This document shows positions 10,411-37,590 of a stretch of DNA of 38,898 bases, piece after piece (positions within the stretch are counted from its first letter, which is position 1; the number at the start of each line of letters is the position of its first letter). The DNA comes from a bacterium (GTDB lineage Bacteria > CLD3 > SB21): assembly GCA_016787925.1 (NCBI GenBank), contig JAEUSK010000195.1, positions 1-38,898 on the forward strand. Reading direction: 5' to 3'. Both the position numbers and the translations under genes were made by a program. Under the pieces are notes generated by a model. It had not been told where the DNA came from and ran no database searches. It was given only the letters and a program-made list of their open reading frames with translations.

Positions 10411-11895
10411 CTACTCAACCAATCGCCTCGTGATCTCTTCCTGGGCCAACTGCCCTGAACTAAAAGTGCAAACAAAGTTTTTCAAATATCTGAGATCATC
10501 CCCGATATAAGGATTGCCGCAAGCGATGAGAAGATGCTCTTTGTTTTGAAATAGGGATTCTAACGCATTTTTAATTGCATCAGGCAGCTGATATTTTTTC
10601 TGCCACGCCATCGGCTTCACATCCGTGATAACAACTACCCTCTTGAATGCTGATAAATCCGGAATTGGCAACTCTATTCCCGACAATTCCGTTTCAAATA
10701 TTTTCATGGTGCTCACATGTTCTTTGATATAGCTGAAACTACTTCGATCAGTTTGAATCAACCACACGGCGGAGCCTTCTCCGGAATGTTTATCAGGCCA
10801 TTTTCCTTTTTTTGTTATAAAACATTGCTGCGTTACGTGTTGCGCAAACTGCACATGCTCATTATTTCCAACGATCTTCATTGCGGTAGAACCATCTGTA
10901 AACCGATTAACGAACAATCCTAATTCTTTTTTGGCGTGTAATATCCTTTCAACCGATTTGTCCAGCTGTGCTCTCGATTCAGAACTATTATCAACTAAGC
11001 GTCGGAGAATCGCGCATGCATTTTCGACACTAACGGGGATCAGCAACTGATCTGCGCCTGCATCAAAAACTTTTGTAACCGCTTCTTTCTCGGAAAATTG
11101 ACTTGTTACCGCGCCCATCATCAGAGCGTCGGTGATGATAAGCCCTTCAAATTTCCACTGAGTTCGAATCAAATCAGTTAGAATTTTTTTCGACATCGTT
11201 GCAGGCAAACCCGAAGCATCCAGCGAAGAAACGGCGATGTGTCCGACCATCATGGCGCCAACTTCCGCTTCGATCGCGCGACGAAATGGGCGAAATTCCA
11301 TTTCCTCCAGCCTCGTTCGTGAATGAGGTAGAATGGGCAATTCTTGGTGCGAGTCCGTCTGCGTATCTCCGTGTCCCGGAAAATGTTTTGCTGTTGCCAT
11401 CATGCCGTTGTCCTGCAATCCTTTAATGTACGCCAATCCGCACGAAGCGGCCGTTTCCGCATCTTCACCGAAGGAACGAATATTGATGATTGGGTTGTCG
11501 CGGTTATTATTGACATCGAGAACCGGACTGAAATTCTGGTGAATTCCCATGGCGCGTGATTCAAGTGCGGTAATTTTGGCAACATCATAAATAAGTTGAA
11601 CGGAGTTTTTCCCGACCGCTTCGGCAAGGCCCATGAAGTATGGAAAACTTGTTGCACCGCTGACCTGCTGACCCAATCCTCGTTCCAGATCAGCAGAAAA
11701 GAGTATCGGTTGCTGGCTAATGCTCTGAAGGCGGTTGAGCGAATGAATTACTTGTTCAATATCGCCGCCAAAAACAATAAAACTCCCGATGTGAAACTCT
11801 CTGATCAGATCTTCTGCCTGCTTCAGGTCAAATTCCGGATCATGAAAATCTAAACGCGGGACGATCAACTGTCCTATTTTCTCGTCTAAATTCAT
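10411..11895 (-). CDS. Glycoside hydrolase family 3, NagZ-like beta-N-acetylhexosaminidase
   Basis: 494 residues. It contains the diagnostic GH3 beta-N-acetylglucosaminidase motif KHFPGHGDT (170-178) followed by D181-S182-H183, the Asp-His dyad that acts as general acid/base in NagZ. The nucleophile is Asp256 in ITDALMMGAV. Residues 1-330 are the TIM barrel. The remaining 165 residues resemble the C-terminal domain found in two-domain Gram-positive and Bacteroidetes NagZ proteins. No signal peptide is visible, so a cytoplasmic location in peptidoglycan recycling is likely, although related GH3 enzymes can act on other N-acetylhexosaminides. It converges on the GH113-like gene with a 38-bp gap and no clear terminator. 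Confidence 0.87.
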   Translation of the reverse strand: MNLDEKIGQLIVPRLDFHDPEFDLKQAEDLIREFHIGSFIVFGGDIEQVIHSLNRLQSISQQPILFSADLERGLGQQVSGATSFPYFMGLAEAVGKNSVQLIYDVAKITALESRAMGIHQNFSPVLDVNNNRDNPIINIRSFGEDAETAASCGLAYIKGLQDNGMMATAKHFPGHGDTQTDSHQELPILPHSRTRLEEMEFRPFRRAIEAEVGAMMVGHIAVSSLDASGLPATMSKKILTDLIRTQWKFEGLIITDALMMGAVTSQFSEKEAVTKVFDAGADQLLIPVSVENACAILRRLVDNSSESRAQLDKSVERILHAKKELGLFVNRFTDGSTAMKIVGNNEHVQFAQHVTQQCFITKKGKWPDKHSGEGSAVWLIQTDRSSFSYIKEHVSTMKIFETELSGIELPIPDLSAFKRVVVITDVKPMAWQKKYQLPDAIKNALESLFQNKEHLLIACGNPYIGDDLRYLKNFVCTFSSGQLAQEEITRRLVE

Positions 11896-30428: not shown

Positions 30429-30458
30429 AAAAAGGCGCTCAAAATTGAGCGCCTTTTC
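30429..30458. terminator. Bidirectional rho-independent terminator
   Basis: AAAAGGCGCTCAA and TTGAGCGCCTTTT form a 13-bp perfect stem with a 2-nt loop. It lies between uppP and the convergent multihaem cytochrome gene. Confidence 0.88.
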
Positions 30459-30482: not shown

Positions 30483-31658
30483 TTAAGGATGCACATCGTA
30501 AGCAGAAAGTTCTGATAAAGATTTCGTACTTCCTGTTCCGCCTACATTGTTGCCGTCTTTATGGCAAGAGTAGCAAGCCCAATCCAGTGTTACGCCGGTG
30601 GACTTACCGCTCACCAGGCGAATGGAACCCGAGCCGGTCATTGATCCAATAGTGAACATAGAATCTTTTGGAAAGGCGTTATCATTAATCTTAAAGATAT
30701 GGCTGGAAATATCTCCTTTATGCACGTTGGCCGCGACGGCTGATTTTCCGGTATACGCCATGTGGCACTTGGCACAGTCCACAGAGGCGTGCGGTCCGTT
30801 TTGAATCTTACCTGTGTGACAACCTGAACTTGTGCATTCGATTTTCATATTCCCGTTGCTGTTGTCTCTGAAGTACAAAAGGCCCTTGTGCGGATCATGG
30901 CATGTGACGCACGATAAGTTTGAATGTGGGCTTGCCTTGAGTTCATTGTACTGTTCATGATGTTCCACAAAACCGCTCTTGACCGGGACAGTAGCCGTAT
31001 ATCCTCCACGTTGATGGCATTTTCCGCAAAGCGCATTAGTACGATCAATCAGCATCGGTATGCCGTCAGGGTTGAATGCGTGCTGTGAACCTTTATCATG
31101 GCATTCTTCGCACTGGATACCGGTAAATTGAAAATTACCAAACATATTCGGTTTCCATGCGCTGTCAGGATCCGCTCCGGTGGTATGACAGACAAAACAG
31201 TTGTAATCGTACTTTGTTTCAGAAGTTTTATTGTAATCAGCAAAAGCCGACGTAGCCAGATTGTACTGATTCAGACCTTGACCGCCGCCGCTGCCGCCGG
31301 TTCCATAAACAAAGCCATCCGATTTGAGAAAACGGGCTTTCCACCCGTAGCCCCCTATTATGTACTCGAAGTCCGTCCAGGAGGTCCCGGCGGGTGGATT
31401 GGGCACTCCGGCTGATGTACCTGCCGGAAAGGTGGGAGCAACCCCGTTTAATTTCTGCACTTTGTATGGATGGCCGGATTTGACAAAATCGGCGTAGATG
31501 TCGGCGTGACAATCGGTTTCGGCACAGCTCTCCGATCCAACATAGGCCAACGGGGGCGCATCGACCAGAACTTCTTTCTTTTCGGCTTCGCAACCCACGG
31601 CAAGTACCATAAATACAAGTGAAACAGAGACTCTCAAAAAGCCTGATATTCTGTTCAT
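30483..31658 (-). CDS. Multihaem c-type cytochrome lipoprotein (8 motifs)
   Basis: 391 residues. Lipobox LAVGC gives lipidated Cys23. Six CxxCH sites (first Cys at 154, 183, 211, 250, 295, 362) and two CX4CH sites (Cys45-His51, Cys275-His281) give up to eight haems. Many extra His residues can be distal ligands. The arrangement resembles NapC/NrfB- or decahaem-type periplasmic or outer-surface electron carriers; I cannot assign it to a named oxidoreductase, and no partner enzyme subunit is fused. A 34-bp OmpR-type site lies about 125 bp before the start. AGGAGA precedes the ATG. The role is probably electron transfer at the envelope. Confidence 0.9.
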   Translation of the reverse strand: MNRISGFLRVSVSLVFMVLAVGCEAEKKEVLVDAPPLAYVGSESCAETDCHADIYADFVKSGHPYKVQKLNGVAPTFPAGTSAGVPNPPAGTSWTDFEYIIGGYGWKARFLKSDGFVYGTGGSGGGQGLNQYNLATSAFADYNKTSETKYDYNCFVCHTTGADPDSAWKPNMFGNFQFTGIQCEECHDKGSQHAFNPDGIPMLIDRTNALCGKCHQRGGYTATVPVKSGFVEHHEQYNELKASPHSNLSCVTCHDPHKGLLYFRDNSNGNMKIECTSSGCHTGKIQNGPHASVDCAKCHMAYTGKSAVAANVHKGDISSHIFKINDNAFPKDSMFTIGSMTGSGSIRLVSGKSTGVTLDWACYSCHKDGNNVGGTGSTKSLSELSAYDVHP

Positions 31659-31977
31659 ATCTTCTCCTCTTCTAAGGGTTATTGGTTATATTTGACATTA
31701 GCAGTTAAAACATGTAAGAGAGTGCAACCTCTCCGGGCAAAAAGAATTTACGCTATAAAGTTAAAGACAATTGACATTCTTACAACTTAAGTTATCCTTA
31801 ATTTTTGTTAAGGAATTGCACATTGGTTATAAATTCATCACCTGCAATGCGGCTGATTTTCCTTAACCCGGTTATCTCTTATCTGTCCTCATTCAGAAAA
31901 TCACTTGGTTGATCACACAGTGCAAATCAAAATTACCTTTTCCATTGTATCAAAGAATCTACTTCTTTTCGGTTCGT
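31659..31977. other. Intergenic region between cytochrome and ferredoxin genes, 319 bp
   Basis: AT-rich. It holds the predicted operator and promoter of the cytochrome gene (31771-31816). The rest (31817-31977) shows no gene, hairpin or repeat that I can support. Confidence 0.6.
31783..31816 (-). promoter_or_regulatory. Predicted OmpR-type operator, site A
   Basis: On the minus strand it reads CCTTAAC, ATTAAGG and ACTTAAG, so TTAA half-sites are spaced 10 and 11 bp apart, one helical turn. Nearly the same 34 bp recur at 32982-33015. It lies about 125 bp upstream of the cytochrome start codon, and a weak -10 (TAAGAAT) follows in both sites. The neighbouring OmpR-family regulator is the obvious candidate to bind it. 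Confidence 0.65.
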
Positions 31978-32280
31978 TCATTTCAGAAGGATAGCTGATT
32001 CTTCCTCAATCTGTTGTAACGTAAGCGCACACACCGGACATTCTTTTTCACACAGCATACAGCCGTTACAATGCGGAGGGTTTGCTAACCAAGGAAATGT
32101 CATCATTCCCGATGGAGGCAATTCGTTGGCTCTATACGGGCCAAGAGCCAGATATGCTAGTCTTTCGCCTTCAACACCGGACGAATTGTGAATTCTCATA
32201 TTGATTGCCCGCTCCGGGCATACATCCATACAGATACCGCATGAAATACAAAATTTTGCGTTCAATTTAAGTTTCAACAT
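31978..32280 (-). CDS. 2[4Fe-4S] ferredoxin-type protein
   Basis: 100 residues. It has two cluster motifs, Cys11-x2-Cys14-x2-Cys17-x3-Cys21-Pro and Cys71-x2-Cys74-x2-Cys77-x3-Cys81-Pro, separated by a long 49-residue insert that is Pro- and Gly-rich. The size and insert differ from short clostridial ferredoxins and look more like an electron-transfer subunit for a membrane complex. It lies 3 bp after the preceding membrane-protein gene, so the two are translated as a pair. No soluble oxidoreductase is next to it. Confidence 0.87.
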   Translation of the reverse strand: MLKLKLNAKFCISCGICMDVCPERAINMRIHNSSGVEGERLAYLALGPYRANELPPSGMMTFPWLANPPHCNGCMLCEKECPVCALTLQQIEEESAILLK

Positions 32281-32283
32281 TTT

Positions 32284-32889
32284 TCAATCTCTTCTTGTTG
32301 TTTCACTATAAAGCCTGATACTTTTTACTGCAGCGTAGACTCCGATAGCTGACAGCAGCAGGAATGATGAGTAAAATGTCATGACCGAAAGTTCGGGATT
32401 TTTGTTGGAACGCCACGAATGCATCGTATGCCAGAACGCGGTTTGTGAAGCCGTATATTCCCCACCCGGTCCTTCCATAACAAACACATATCCTATTATA
32501 TTGAGGAGGCCGCCGAATATGACCAGGTAGGTTGCAAGGCGAAAAGATTTATTTATATCTTCAGTATTACGAAATACTTTCACGACCAGGGCAGTGGCCA
32601 TAGCTACCGTACCAAATGGAACAAAGGGAAGTCCGATCTTAATATCGGCCATTAAGTCCAAATTGAGATTCAAGAAACCGAAAAGCACAGCCAGAAAAAG
32701 CGAACCATCGCGTAAAATAACATACATCATCCACCATAAATCAGCGGCAACCCGCAGCGTGAACCGCCCAACGATACGCTCAAAATAGGGTCTGCCAACG
32801 TGAAGCAGACAGGAGATGACGGAAGCCAGAATTCCAAGATCACATATGGTCTGTGCAGTCCAGATTTCCAGCGATTTGAAAGTATCCAT
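32284..32889 (-). CDS. Five-helix membrane protein, possible electron-transfer subunit
   Basis: 201 residues from ATG 32889. A TTG start at 32955 is possible but would sit almost at the predicted transcription start. There are about five membrane helices (LGILASVISCLLHVG, WMMYVILRDGSLFLAVLFGF, VPFGTVAMATALVVKVF, YLVIFGGLLNIIGYVFVM, FYSSFLLLSAIGVYAAV). His occurs near helix ends (SCLLHVGRP, AFWHTMHSW), which could bind haem b, but no known cytochrome-b motif is clear. The ferredoxin follows at once, and the operator site B is 100 bp upstream. I do not recognise the family. A role in quinone-linked electron flow with the ferredoxin and cytochrome is inferred from context. Confidence 0.6.
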   Translation of the reverse strand: MDTFKSLEIWTAQTICDLGILASVISCLLHVGRPYFERIVGRFTLRVAADLWWMMYVILRDGSLFLAVLFGFLNLNLDLMADIKIGLPFVPFGTVAMATALVVKVFRNTEDINKSFRLATYLVIFGGLLNIIGYVFVMEGPGGEYTASQTAFWHTMHSWRSNKNPELSVMTFYSSFLLLSAIGVYAAVKSIRLYSETTRRD

Positions 32890-32981
32890 GCAATGCTGTC
32901 TCGTTTCGTTCCTTGATCCTAATCTACAAATTCCCGCAATTTCACGACGAGACAAAATTAGGAAGAAATTTGTCGTTCTAT

Positions 32982-33015
32982 CAACTTAAGTTTTTCTTAA
33001 TTCTTTTTAAGGAAT
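32982..33015 (-). promoter_or_regulatory. Predicted OmpR-type operator, site B
   Basis: Differs from site A (31783-31816) at about five of 34 positions: CAACTTAAGTT, CTTAATT and TTAAGGAAT are shared. Similarity continues on the downstream side (TTG-C-TTCT on the plus strand, a -10-like TAGAAC on the minus strand). It lies about 95 bp before the membrane-protein start. Confidence 0.65.
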
Positions 33016-33028
33016 CGAAGTTGGGGAA

Positions 33029-34423
33029 CTAAACTAATGGAGGTAGTATGATGCGGAAAACAGAGCCGGTAGCATTACTTTCAAGCGTAATGGTTCCGAG
33101 ATGAATGCGGATTGCCCATTGAGCGATAGAGAGACCTAAACCCGTTCCCCCTGTTCCACGCGAGCGGTCTTTGTCGATTCTGTAAAAACGATCAAAAATT
33201 TTTGTCTGATGGTCAGGTGAAATTCCCGGACCGCTGTCCTTGATTTCGATTATGACATCTTGACTTTTTTCAACAAATACCCGGATCCTTATACTTCCAC
33301 TCGTCGGCGTATATTTTATTGCATTGTCAATCAGATTTAGTATGGCTTGCCGGAATATTGTTTTGTCAACATTGTAAAATATTCCATCGTCTCCGTCAAT
33401 ACTCGTATTTAGTTTTCTTTCATCGGCTAAGACCGACACCAAGTCAAAACTCTCATTAACAAAGGATAGAAGATTAATACGTTCCTTTCGAAGTTCCACG
33501 ACTCCGGCGTCTGCCTTTGAAAGAATTAATAAACTGTCCACGAGGTGCGTGAGCCGGTTAGTTTCTTCGAGCATACTCGCAATGACTTCCCGATAATAGG
33601 AGGATGGTTTACCTTCTTGCATACCGACCTCACCTACACTCCGTATGGCGGTCAGCGGGGTCCGAAGTTCATGGGAGGCATCCGCGGTGAACCTCTGCAA
33701 TTGTTGATATGACGATTCAACTCTAAACAGCAGATCGTTGATGCCGTTAGCAAGGTGTCCCAGTTCATCATTTGAATTTATAACAGGCAGTCTTTCTTTT
33801 AAATTTTCGGCAGTAATCTTTTTGGCTTGAATCACCATATCATCAATCGGCTTCAATGCCCGCCTGGCCATTCTGTAGCCGCTGATGGCCGCCCCTATAA
33901 GAACCAATGGGCTACTTAATAATAACATCAGCATGAATTCGTGCATTTGTTCAAATACAAGTTCCTCACTCATGGCGATGCGAATAAAGTAAGTTTTATT
34001 ACCAACTGCATGGCTCGTGGAACGGAATCTCATTAGGGTTCCATCTTCTAACACTACTGTGTATGGAATTTGATTTGGAGTAAATTCCTCTTTTTCAGGC
34101 GCTTCGCCAAGCGTGCGCTGTTGAAGCGTCTGACTTCGGTATGCAAGTGTGCCGTCACTATTCCAAATTTCTACAAATCGTTCATATCGTTTGGAATGGT
34201 GAAGCGAATCTTCGTGCTGCATATTATAAGTAATCTCCGGAGCCTGAGCTAACAATTCTTGGATAATCTCAAGATCTTCTTTAAGGTTCATATCAATTTG
34301 TTTCGTGAGATAAAAAAAAAGAAAGAGCGATGTGCTTAGGGCATACAGGAAAAGAAGCACGCTTGTAATAAGAGTATAACGAAGGGCAAGGCGTGTACGA
34401 ATGTTATGGTAACTAAAAGCCAT
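33029..34423 (-). CDS. Two-component sensor histidine kinase
   Basis: 464 residues. TM1 (about 12-40), a periplasmic sensor region of about 120 residues, TM2 (about 162-184), HAMP (about 186-240), HisKA with His251 in ADASHELRTPLTAI, and HATPase_c with N box (NLIDNAIKYTP), G1 (DSGPGIS), F box (DRFYRIDKDRS) and G2 (GGTGLGLSIA). The layout is like CusS/heavy-metal or similar sensor kinases. The periplasmic part has two His-rich spots (QHEDSLHHSKRY), which may bind a metal, but this is weak. The start ATG overlaps the stop of the response-regulator gene by one base (TAATG), so the pair is translationally coupled. Confidence 0.94.
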   Translation of the reverse strand: MAFSYHNIRTRLALRYTLITSVLLFLYALSTSLFLFFYLTKQIDMNLKEDLEIIQELLAQAPEITYNMQHEDSLHHSKRYERFVEIWNSDGTLAYRSQTLQQRTLGEAPEKEEFTPNQIPYTVVLEDGTLMRFRSTSHAVGNKTYFIRIAMSEELVFEQMHEFMLMLLLSSPLVLIGAAISGYRMARRALKPIDDMVIQAKKITAENLKERLPVINSNDELGHLANGINDLLFRVESSYQQLQRFTADASHELRTPLTAIRSVGEVGMQEGKPSSYYREVIASMLEETNRLTHLVDSLLILSKADAGVVELRKERINLLSFVNESFDLVSVLADERKLNTSIDGDDGIFYNVDKTIFRQAILNLIDNAIKYTPTSGSIRIRVFVEKSQDVIIEIKDSGPGISPDHQTKIFDRFYRIDKDRSRGTGGTGLGLSIAQWAIRIHLGTITLESNATGSVFRIILPPLV

Positions 34424-35106
34424 TATTGTATTTCTTCGCTTAAGATAAATCCGACACCACGTAAAGTATGAAGCAGCTTTGTATCAAAAGGATCATCAAT
34501 CTTTTTTCGTAAATGAGCAATGTGTACATCGATGACATTATCCAAAGGAGTGGCACGTGCCATTTCATGCCATACATTCTGGCTAAGCATCCCACGGGAA
34601 ACGATTTTATTCTTGTTTCGAAGAAGATACTCCAGTAATTCAAATTCCTTATTGGTCAACTGCAATACCTTCTGATCTCGGGAGACTTTTCTTGTTAACA
34701 AATTCATCTCAATACCTGCAAAACTTAAGTGCTGGGCTGACTCTTTTTTCCCGCGTCGCGATAAGGCGCGTATTCGAGCAACTAATTCAGGAAAGGCAAA
34801 AGGCTTAATGAGATAATCATCCGCTCCCGCTCCAAGTCCGGTTACTTTGTCTTCAACAGAATCTCTTGCAGTCAGAACAATTACCGGCGTTGATATAGAT
34901 TTCTGCCGCATGATTTCCAAGATTTCTATACCGTCGCGGCCGGGAAGCATCCAATCCAGAATCACGAGATCAAATGTTTCAGAGTTAACACGGAAAAAAC
35001 CTTCTTCACCATTGTAGGCAATGGTTGCAATAAAGCCTTCTTTTTCTAATCTCTCTTTTATGGCACGGGCTACTTTCTTTTCGTCTTCGATAATAAGGAT
35101 TTTCAT
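34423..35106 (-). CDS. OmpR-family response regulator
   Basis: 227 residues. Receiver domain with the acidic pair E7/D8, phospho-acceptor Asp51 (VILDWMLPG) and Lys in YLIKPF. The C-terminal winged helix (about 125-225) has NLLTRKVSRDQKVLQLTNKEFELLEYLLRNKN (split) and DVHIAHLRKKIDD, typical of the OmpR/PhoB type. Such regulators bind direct repeats with 10-11 bp spacing. Two matching sites are found upstream of the redox genes (31783-31816 and 32982-33015). One TTAA half-site (near 35117) lies before its own start, so autoregulation is possible. Confidence 0.94.
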   Translation of the reverse strand: MKILIIEDEKKVARAIKERLEKEGFIATIAYNGEEGFFRVNSETFDLVILDWMLPGRDGIEILEIMRQKSISTPVIVLTARDSVEDKVTGLGAGADDYLIKPFAFPELVARIRALSRRGKKESAQHLSFAGIEMNLLTRKVSRDQKVLQLTNKEFELLEYLLRNKNKIVSRGMLSQNVWHEMARATPLDNVIDVHIAHLRKKIDDPFDTKLLHTLRGVGFILSEEIQ

Positions 35107-35415
35107 AACCTATTGTTTTAAGGATACGCTAGCATCCAATTAGCGCCTATAACTTATTGCAACATAAAAGTTTTATCATAAATTTCAAATACCAAACAAA
35201 AATGAAAACTTCCGGAAAAGAATTCTCTTTGAAAACAAAAGGTTTTTCGGACATCCAAAACATCACTCCCGTGGTTCGGTCGACGGTTTCTGCATTAGCA
35301 GATCAATGTGATCGACCATGATAACCGGCCGCGGACAAGAAGAGTTTTTGTTCAAGTGATAGGTGAATAAATCGCAATTTCTTTTTCCGATCGCGCCAGA
35401 CGCACACCACGTTTA
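35107..35415. other. Intergenic region before the two-component genes, 309 bp
   Basis: Between the TonB-receptor stop and the response-regulator start. I see no credible gene, tRNA or repeat. A single CCTTAA half-site (minus strand, near 35117) is the only match to the operator motif. There is no clear terminator for the TonB-receptor gene. Confidence 0.5.
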
Positions 35416-37590
35416 CTACAATCTGATTTTGATTCCTGCATTGGTCACGAATCCGTCCGTTGGAGCATAAATTTCTTTAAATAACGGTTGTTGGCGCGTT
35501 CCGGTAAACATACTTTCAAATCGAGACTGTCGTGTGTCGAATAGATTTTCAAAATTGACGAACAGACTGAAATGATTCCATTTTCTTTCTGCCATCACAC
35601 CTTGAATCCAGTAATCACGCGTATCGTTGCCGTTACTCAATTTCTGTCGCCCGGTGTAATAGGCCTCATATCCTATTCTAAATTTCCCCTCTGCTTCATA
35701 AATTAGCACAAGCCCGATCCGATGTTTTGTCGTCACCGGAATGGTCTGAGCCAAATTTTCAGCGTGACGCTGAATATCGGTAAATGTGTATCCGGCAAAT
35801 AACTTGAATCGACCGTATCCGACCTTCAAATTGCTTTCAAACCCTTTCGTGTCGGTATATCCTTTAGTGTTCTCAAAAATATAGACTCCATTCGCCGATG
35901 AGTCCGAATTGAGTACAAAAGGTTTGTCAAGGCGCGTATAAAAAAATAACTGATTTATAGATAATGTCCATTGACCTAAAAATATCCCGGTATAATTAAC
36001 GTCCCAATTAGCCCCGGTGGAAGTTTCTGCTCTGGCTTTGTTAACATTGACCGGTCTGACATTTCTAAATCCAACTTCCTCGGACTCTTCATTAAAGATA
36101 TTTGGTATTTTATAACCTAATCCAAAACCTAATCGTGTCGTCAAACCAGGGATTATTTTATAAAATGCAGATACTCTGGGCAAAAGAAAAAAGCCATAGT
36201 TTTTTTCATAGTCAGCTCGTACGCCGGATTCCAGCTTGATTTTTTCGCTTATGGCCCAATTGTTTTGCGCAAAAGCGCCTACGGTCGTTGAAGACAGATT
36301 AAGGCTTTCCGCCCCTTTCTGACGATCATTGAAGCGGTCCGTCCATAAACTTAGGCCAACGGTCCACTCGTTGCTATTCATAACCTGCGAATAAGCGAGT
36401 TCCGAATAACTCCCCACCTGATAACCCTTGAATCGATAATCCTGCAATTCAATCCGTCTCCCGAAATAGTGAACACTCTGTTTGAGGATGAGTGTCCTGA
36501 CACGGTCAATTTTCTTTTCAAATTGAAGTTGGGTTGAAAGCCGTTGTGATCTATTTTTTTCAAAGTACGTATGGACGTCATTCGAACCGTTTTCAATGAC
36601 GTCCATGTCGCCGCCCAATCTTTTTTCTACTGACGCATTAAGCCTCAGGCTGGCCGTGGAACTTTCGTCATGATAATAAAAAATATTTGGATTAACGGTA
36701 AACCGCGTAACGTCCGGAATATCTGAGAAATTATCATTATCCGGATCGTAAGCGGTTTGCCCGTTGCCTGAAACAAACAAAGTATACCCGAGGTGATCAT
36801 ACTTCTGTGCGGCGTATGCGCTCAGATCATAACCTCCTGCCGATGTTCCATTGAGCAGCATAGAAATTTCCTTTTCTTCTTCAGGCTCTTTACTTACGAG
36901 GTTGACCACACCGGCAATTGCTCCGCCGCCGTACAAGGTTGATGCACTCCCTTTGACGATCTCAATCTGCTTGAGATCCAAGGGCGGTATCTGCATAATA
37001 CTTAATCCTCCGGCAAAACCGGAATAAAGCGGGAATCCATCCCGTAATAATTGAGTGTAGCGGCCGTCAAGCCCCTGGATTCTGAAATTGGCATTGGCCG
37101 ATGTTGCGGATGTTTGCTGAACCTGGATGCCCGTGCTTTCATTTAATTGCATACGAATATCGCCGGGTTTCATGGTAGCTTTTTCATCAAGTTCTTCCGC
37201 AGCGATCACTTCTACGCGCGTCGGCGTTTCTTCGATAGTGCGGCTGCTCCGCATGGCCGTAACCATGATCTCTTCACCTTCATGGGATCTCGGCTCCATC
37301 AGCACGACAAATATTCTTCCTTTTTCTATTGGAAAACCAACCGTATCACGACAAGTCTCATACCCCATATATGTGTATCTGAAAGTTTTTGAACCGACGG
37401 GAATATCATTAATAACAACGATGCCTTCCAAATTGGTGGTCCCGCCTCTATTTGAATTCTCAAGAATCACGTTGACACCGACCAATACTTCTTTTGTTTC
37501 TTTATCTTTGACGATAGCCGTAAAAGTGTTCTGACTGAGTAGGCTTGAAAAATTCACACAAAGCCCTACCCAACAAATAATTATTTTCAT
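35416..37590 (-). CDS. TonB-dependent outer-membrane receptor
   Basis: 724 residues. Signal peptide (about 1-19), a carboxypeptidase-regulatory-like beta domain (about 21-100: TAIVKDKETKEVLVGVNVIL, RYTYMGYE), then the plug (about 110-235) with ETPTRVEVIAAEELDEK, NFRIQGLDGRY, QIEIVKGSASTLYGGGAIAG and VVNLVSKEP. The 22-stranded barrel follows, ending TNAGIKIRL. This is the BtuB/FecA-like architecture with an FCB-type extra domain. It imports a metal chelate, cobalamin or a similar substrate. The operon partner upstream is a Cys-rich peptide often found with metal-handling receptors. No good ribosome site; 18 bp after the previous gene. Confidence 0.93.
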   Translation of the reverse strand: MKIIICWVGLCVNFSSLLSQNTFTAIVKDKETKEVLVGVNVILENSNRGGTTNLEGIVVINDIPVGSKTFRYTYMGYETCRDTVGFPIEKGRIFVVLMEPRSHEGEEIMVTAMRSSRTIEETPTRVEVIAAEELDEKATMKPGDIRMQLNESTGIQVQQTSATSANANFRIQGLDGRYTQLLRDGFPLYSGFAGGLSIMQIPPLDLKQIEIVKGSASTLYGGGAIAGVVNLVSKEPEEEKEISMLLNGTSAGGYDLSAYAAQKYDHLGYTLFVSGNGQTAYDPDNDNFSDIPDVTRFTVNPNIFYYHDESSTASLRLNASVEKRLGGDMDVIENGSNDVHTYFEKNRSQRLSTQLQFEKKIDRVRTLILKQSVHYFGRRIELQDYRFKGYQVGSYSELAYSQVMNSNEWTVGLSLWTDRFNDRQKGAESLNLSSTTVGAFAQNNWAISEKIKLESGVRADYEKNYGFFLLPRVSAFYKIIPGLTTRLGFGLGYKIPNIFNEESEEVGFRNVRPVNVNKARAETSTGANWDVNYTGIFLGQWTLSINQLFFYTRLDKPFVLNSDSSANGVYIFENTKGYTDTKGFESNLKVGYGRFKLFAGYTFTDIQRHAENLAQTIPVTTKHRIGLVLIYEAEGKFRIGYEAYYTGRQKLSNGNDTRDYWIQGVMAERKWNHFSLFVNFENLFDTRQSRFESMFTGTRQQPLFKEIYAPTDGFVTNAGIKIRL

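Follow-up and report, generated by a model that had tools for sequence, protein, structure and literature searches.

Two putative TTAA-repeat operators beside a CopRS-like two-component system precede multihaem cytochrome and ferredoxin genes

Position and layout of the two sites

In the stretch of DNA analysed here (38,898 nt, referred to as the window), two closely similar short sequences lie in separate intergenic regions near the genes of a two-component system. The question raised by this locus is whether they are operators of the adjacent OmpR-family response regulator (RR) and, if so, how they would act on the genes behind them. The features concerned are the following:

30429..30458 (-), strong intrinsic terminator past the cytochrome gene, 13-bp stem
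30483..31658 (-), multihaem c-type cytochrome lipoprotein, 391 aa, proposed target 1, with 6 CxxCH and 2 CX4CH motifs
31786..31812 (-), putative operator 1, three TTAA half-sites, before the cytochrome gene
31978..32280 (-), 4Fe-4S ferredoxin, 100 aa, second gene of proposed target operon 2
32284..32889 (-), membrane protein of no known family, 201 aa, first gene of proposed target operon 2
32985..33011 (-), putative operator 2, three TTAA half-sites, before the membrane protein/ferredoxin operon
33029..34423 (-), sensor histidine kinase, 464 aa, CopS/CusS-like (TIGR01386, 273 bits, cut-off 292.6)
34423..35106 (-), OmpR/PhoB-type RR, 227 aa, CopR/PmrA-like, proposed binder (TIGR01387, 234 bits, cut-off 279.2)

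Comparison of positions 31783-31816 with 32982-33015 showed 30 of 34 bases to be identical; the similarity described in the original prediction was borne out, and its count of 29 was not. The wider repeat around both sites is 53 nt long, gap-free and 81% identical (31764-31816 and 32963-33015). Both sites carry the predicted three TTAA half-sites 10-11 bp apart, the spacing being 11 bp and then 10 bp. Read on the plus strand, each consists of CTTAAG-N5-CTTAAT with a third TTAA 10 bp further on, and in operator 1 the half-sites are CTTAAG (31786-31791), CTTAAT (31797-31802) and GTTAAG (31807-31812). On the gene strand the order is CTTAA, ATTAAG 10 bp on and CTTAAG another 11 bp on, followed directly by TTGTAA or TTGATA. 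Since TTAA is a palindrome, the orientation of bound subunits is not readable from the sequence.

Site 1 is 125 nt from the cytochrome start (ATG 31658) and site 2 is 93 nt from the membrane protein start (ATG 32889), in line with the expected distance of about 95-125 bp to each minus-strand start. A TTG further upstream, at 32955, is unlikely to be the membrane protein start because the orthologue in the sister species aligns from the ATG. Operator 2 lies 13 nt past the end of the sensor kinase gene.

Uniqueness of the sites in the genome

The pair of sites is not due to chance, as had been anticipated. When the two intergenic regions are compared, their best-matching 34-mers agree at 30 bases, against at most 22 in 40 Markov shuffles, and a degenerate form of the motif, allowing up to three mismatches, gave no matches in 100 shuffles of the window. 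The exact pattern YTTAAK-N5-YTTAAK is found on the plus strand at 31786 and 32985 and at no other place in the window. With up to three mismatches, the longer motif matched the whole 3.6-Mb genome twice, at these two sites only; the scan with CTTAAG-N5-CTTAA-N6-TTAAGGA that had been suggested as a check also returned exactly two matches, both of them the window sites. A triple TTAA without the rest of the motif shows no genome-wide enrichment, with 6 places against 13 for a reversed control. It is therefore the fuller motif that is specific, the triple TTAA by itself not being rare enough to matter, and the regulon visible through the motif consists of two promoters only.

Conservation in the genus and phylum

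The same intergenic regions were compared in relatives, as had also been proposed, using a phylum sample of 9 genomes in which the genus is represented by three species: the window genome (G000), its sister species (G002) and a third species (G001). In G002 the module is present, with identities of 84% for the RR, 94% for the cytochrome, 82% for the membrane protein and 75% for the kinase; the ferredoxin is there as well. Exactly two sites match in G002, in the same two places as in the window. In G001, orthologues of the RR, membrane protein and cytochrome are all absent, and there are zero sites. Within the phylum sample, orthologues of the membrane protein and cytochrome are absent from every genome except G000 and G002. 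Among the seven other genomes, one (G008) has a single look-alike with three mismatches, and the reversed control gives an equal number there.

The upstream flank of each operator has diverged in G002: at site 1 it aligns poorly, and at site 2 it carries an insertion. Conservation begins at the operator edge. Operator 2 is retained despite the insertion of about 150 nt directly before it. This insertion, between the kinase gene and operator 2 (locus L007, about 10888-11050), contains a palindromic element, GAGCCCTGCCGAAGGGCTC.

The sensor kinase and the response regulator

The RR carries a receiver domain (PF00072) and a winged-helix DNA-binding domain (PF00486). The best-scoring models for RR and kinase are of the heavy-metal CopR/CopS type, both below their curated cut-offs; against the PmrA equivalog NF007928 the RR scores 191 bits (below the cut-off of 330), and against the PhoB model 188.7 bits (below 296.2). 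Of the residues through which PmrA contacts bases, the equivalents of N188 and R210 are kept in the RR, N196 is replaced by H, and H195 is not kept.

The original prediction called the pair of sites a redox regulon. The proposed targets, a multihaem cytochrome and a 4Fe-4S ferredoxin, are indeed redox proteins, but a redox signal finds no direct support, the sensor and regulator being nearest to the heavy-metal CopS/CopR models. Judged by these models, a metal signal for the sensor is plausible. The sensor domain has a HEDSLHH patch, kept in G002 and absent from the paralogous kinases, whose residues are possible metal ligands.

In neither the window nor G002 does a TTAA repeat precede the gene of the RR itself, which distinguishes this RR from its relatives, and autoregulation through the same box was therefore rejected. 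G000 (window 35107-35416) and G002 (L007 13134-13415) share an almost identical block of about 200 nt upstream of the RR. The genes past this block differ: beyond the regulator the window encodes a TonB receptor together with a protein of weak DUF6660 similarity, whereas G002 has a DedA-like gene and a CusB/RND efflux operon. The box is absent from both the G002 efflux operon and the TonB receptor and DUF6660-like genes of the window.

TTAA chains beside related regulators

Close relatives of the RR (42-49% identical, within the 9-genome phylum sample) were compared with distant RRs. Chains of at least two TTAA phased at 10-11 bp precede the regulator's own genes in 7 of 10 close relatives and in 1 of 18 distant RRs (Fisher test, 7e-4, a value that overstates independence because 3 of the 10 close loci are orthologues of one gene), and chains of at least three are found in 5 of 10 and 0 of 18, respectively. 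An eighth close relative, in G007, has a triple TTAA before its two-gene operon. When all 256 four-letter words were compared, TTAA was the best, with a best phase of 10-11 bp. A weight matrix was built from five relatives' sites, none of them from the window/G002 module; it ranked the two sites first and second in the 38.9-kb window (21.5 and 15.6; next 12.3) and first and second in 19 kb of G002 (19.9 and 19.6; next 12.3). Such chains as a general trait of the CopR family were rejected, since outside the phylum they accompany 2 of 80 related RRs against 2.3 expected.

Several other TTAA chains were observed. DUF2231-like membrane protein genes lie behind chains beside related RRs in two other families (L043 8347-8383 and L050 11958-11990), the DUF2231-like protein of G007 scoring below the Pfam cut-off; these genes are likely targets. 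In a metagenome-assembled genome named Candidatus Parcubacteria (L144), four phased TTAA lie upstream of a related RR, on a contig that is possibly misbinned. In all three species of the genus, a paralogous RR has a triple TTAA box between its gene and a divergent lipoprotein gene, which represents a second circuit with the same grammar and other spacer bases:

L048 2916-2941, triple TTAA box of the paralogous RR
L047 7876-7901, triple TTAA box of the paralogous RR
L045 587-612, triple TTAA box of the paralogous RR

The window sites might instead be bound by another regulator of the same genome, giving a cross-wired target set; one candidate is a paralogue of the RR, 44% identical and encoded on contig C302. 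The C302 regulator's own box, CTTAAGCCAGCCTTAAATGGGCGTTAA, matches the window sites in layout, in half-sites and in orientation towards the divergent gene. Its spacer, however, is CCAGC, unlike the TTATC and TTTTT of the window sites, and across the genus the sites and the module RR are present or absent together, while a C302-type RR also occurs in G001, which has no such sites. Binding by this or another regulator is thus quite unlikely. The 53-nt similarity might also be read as a recent promoter duplication or small repeat element of no regulatory meaning, as it reaches past the half-sites; against this, the genome holds only two copies, both are kept in G002 with the matches concentrated in the half-sites, and the independently derived matrix supports the sites, so that we regard this reading as very improbable. 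The second operator could nonetheless have arisen by duplication.

The adjacent RR, which had been proposed as the natural binder, is well supported as the candidate by the conservation of the module in G002, its absence from G001, the TTAA chains of relatives and the independent matrix.

Core promoters and mode of regulation

Candidate core promoters were found next to both operators:

31758..31785 (-), putative core promoter 1, TTGTAA (31785-31780), 16 nt, TAACTT (31763-31758), kept in G002
32955..32984 (-), putative core promoter 2, TTGATA (32984-32979), 18 nt, TAATTT (32960-32955)

For promoter 2, the -10 is not shared by G002. The similarity between the sites had been said to run on into a possible -10 region; three of the four promoters of the window and G002 have a TA...T -10 at 16-18 bp, but the feature common to all four orthologous and paralogous sites is a -35-like hexamer, TTG(T/A)(A/T)A, directly after the last half-site. 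The -35 of both promoters is poor and abuts the operator. In upstream regions of the phylum, TTGAC-N17-19-TA...T is enriched (7 against 0.8 expected, in a small sample), and the Bacteroidota-type TAnnTTTG -10, considered as an alternative, is enriched less strongly in the same small sample. Over its full length, the cytochrome leader RNA is no more strongly folded than shuffled sequences (z 0.13). A small hairpin, GGAGAGGTTGCACTCTCT, is present in this leader (window 31717-31734, minus strand) and is kept in G002.

Class-II activators such as PhoB and PmrA have their operator upstream of the -35, not over the -10 or the start. Class-II activation is proposed here because the half-sites end exactly where the poor -35 (TTGTAA or TTGATA) starts. 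The operators might instead repress, the RR covering the -35 and keeping the promoters shut until a signal releases it; the half-sites do abut the -35, and direction is not readable from sequence. Nevertheless, the -35 is poor and the operator is placed on its upstream side, clear of the -10 and the start, as with PhoB and PmrA, and repression appears unlikely.

We consider it probable that both sites are operators of the RR at 34423-35106, with class-II activation of both transcription units as the likeliest mode. The partner kinase (33029-34423) would phosphorylate the RR, which would then bind head-to-tail on the phased half-sites in a PmrA-like manner, two subunits on CTTAAG-N5-CTTAAT and perhaps a third on the distal TTAA. 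Once bound, the RR would act as a class-II activator by recruiting RNA polymerase, and the multihaem cytochrome gene and the membrane protein/ferredoxin operon would be turned on together. The sites, their uniqueness, their conservation along with the module and the link between this type of site and this RR group are observed; binding, phosphorylation, the direction (activation), the stoichiometry and a metal- or envelope-type signal are what we infer.

Comparison with known systems

The boxes of CopR, CusR and AgrR are inverted repeats of the TGACA/TTACA type, for example ATKACA-N4-TGTMAT, and the PhoB pho box is made up of 11-bp direct repeats that replace or abut the -35. The window sites resemble the pho box in having direct repeats at an 11-bp phase that replace or abut the -35, and differ from it in half-site sequence and in a regulator that scores lower on the PhoB model. 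CopR- and CopS-type profiles (TIGR01387 and TIGR01386) are the best for the window RR and kinase, below cut-off, yet the window and its relatives have TTAA direct repeats and not inverted-repeat boxes. AgrR is itself a class-II activator with extra in-phase half-sites (PMC7380067), and in this respect resembles the system proposed here.

The closest operator is the PmrA (BasR) box of Salmonella, Klebsiella and Acinetobacter. In Salmonella it consists of CTTAAG and XTTAAT with 5 bp between them (PMC3973317), and its consensus is YTTAAK-N5-YTTAAK (PMC10729948). Promoters of PmrA and of PhoB have a -35 that coincides with a half-site, and contact with sigma region 4 at the -35 half-site is made by PhoB and is modelled, unproven, for PmrA (PMC4660055). 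The window sites share the first and second half-sites, the 5-bp gap, the direct repeat and a -35 at or next to a half-site. They differ from the PmrA box by a third phased TTAA at 10 bp, by a regulator and kinase that score higher on CopR/CopS models, and by their targets, which would be a cytochrome and a ferredoxin in place of lipid A modification genes.

Target genes

The cytochrome may bind eight haems, judging by its motifs; the two CX4CH motifs are CAETDCH and CTSSGCH, and all 6 CxxCH and 2 CX4CH are kept in G002. Multihaem cytochromes stand beside related RRs elsewhere in 1 of 80 loci, which therefore gives no functional hint. The gap between the membrane protein and ferredoxin genes is 3 nt. 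No relatives of the membrane protein were confirmed in a scan of 84,980 GTDB genomes, and 386 genomes searched with a profile yielded one homologue, distant and solitary, in another phylum (L073 8214-8714), near which regulator, ferredoxin and cytochrome are all absent. The AlphaFold model of the membrane protein (pLDDT 42.5) was unusable.

Significance

The regulatory device is of a familiar type; its lineage and its targets are unusual. It offers a small, complete and testable circuit of one sensor/regulator pair, two putative operators and three target genes, through which a multihaem cytochrome would be controlled in a phylum of which hardly any members have been sequenced. The operator rule, TTAA phased at 10-11 bp, is transferable to a group of this phylum's regulators, and the circuit provides a handle for finding the signal that turns on the electron-transfer module. 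A more speculative proposal, to which we give limited credence, is that in this uncultured phylum a metal-sensing system derived from CopRS has come to control, by way of a PmrA-like box with three half-sites, an electron conduit formed by the membrane protein, the ferredoxin and the multihaem lipoprotein cytochrome. If this were true, metal sensing would be coupled not to efflux but to the export of electrons or the reduction of metal.
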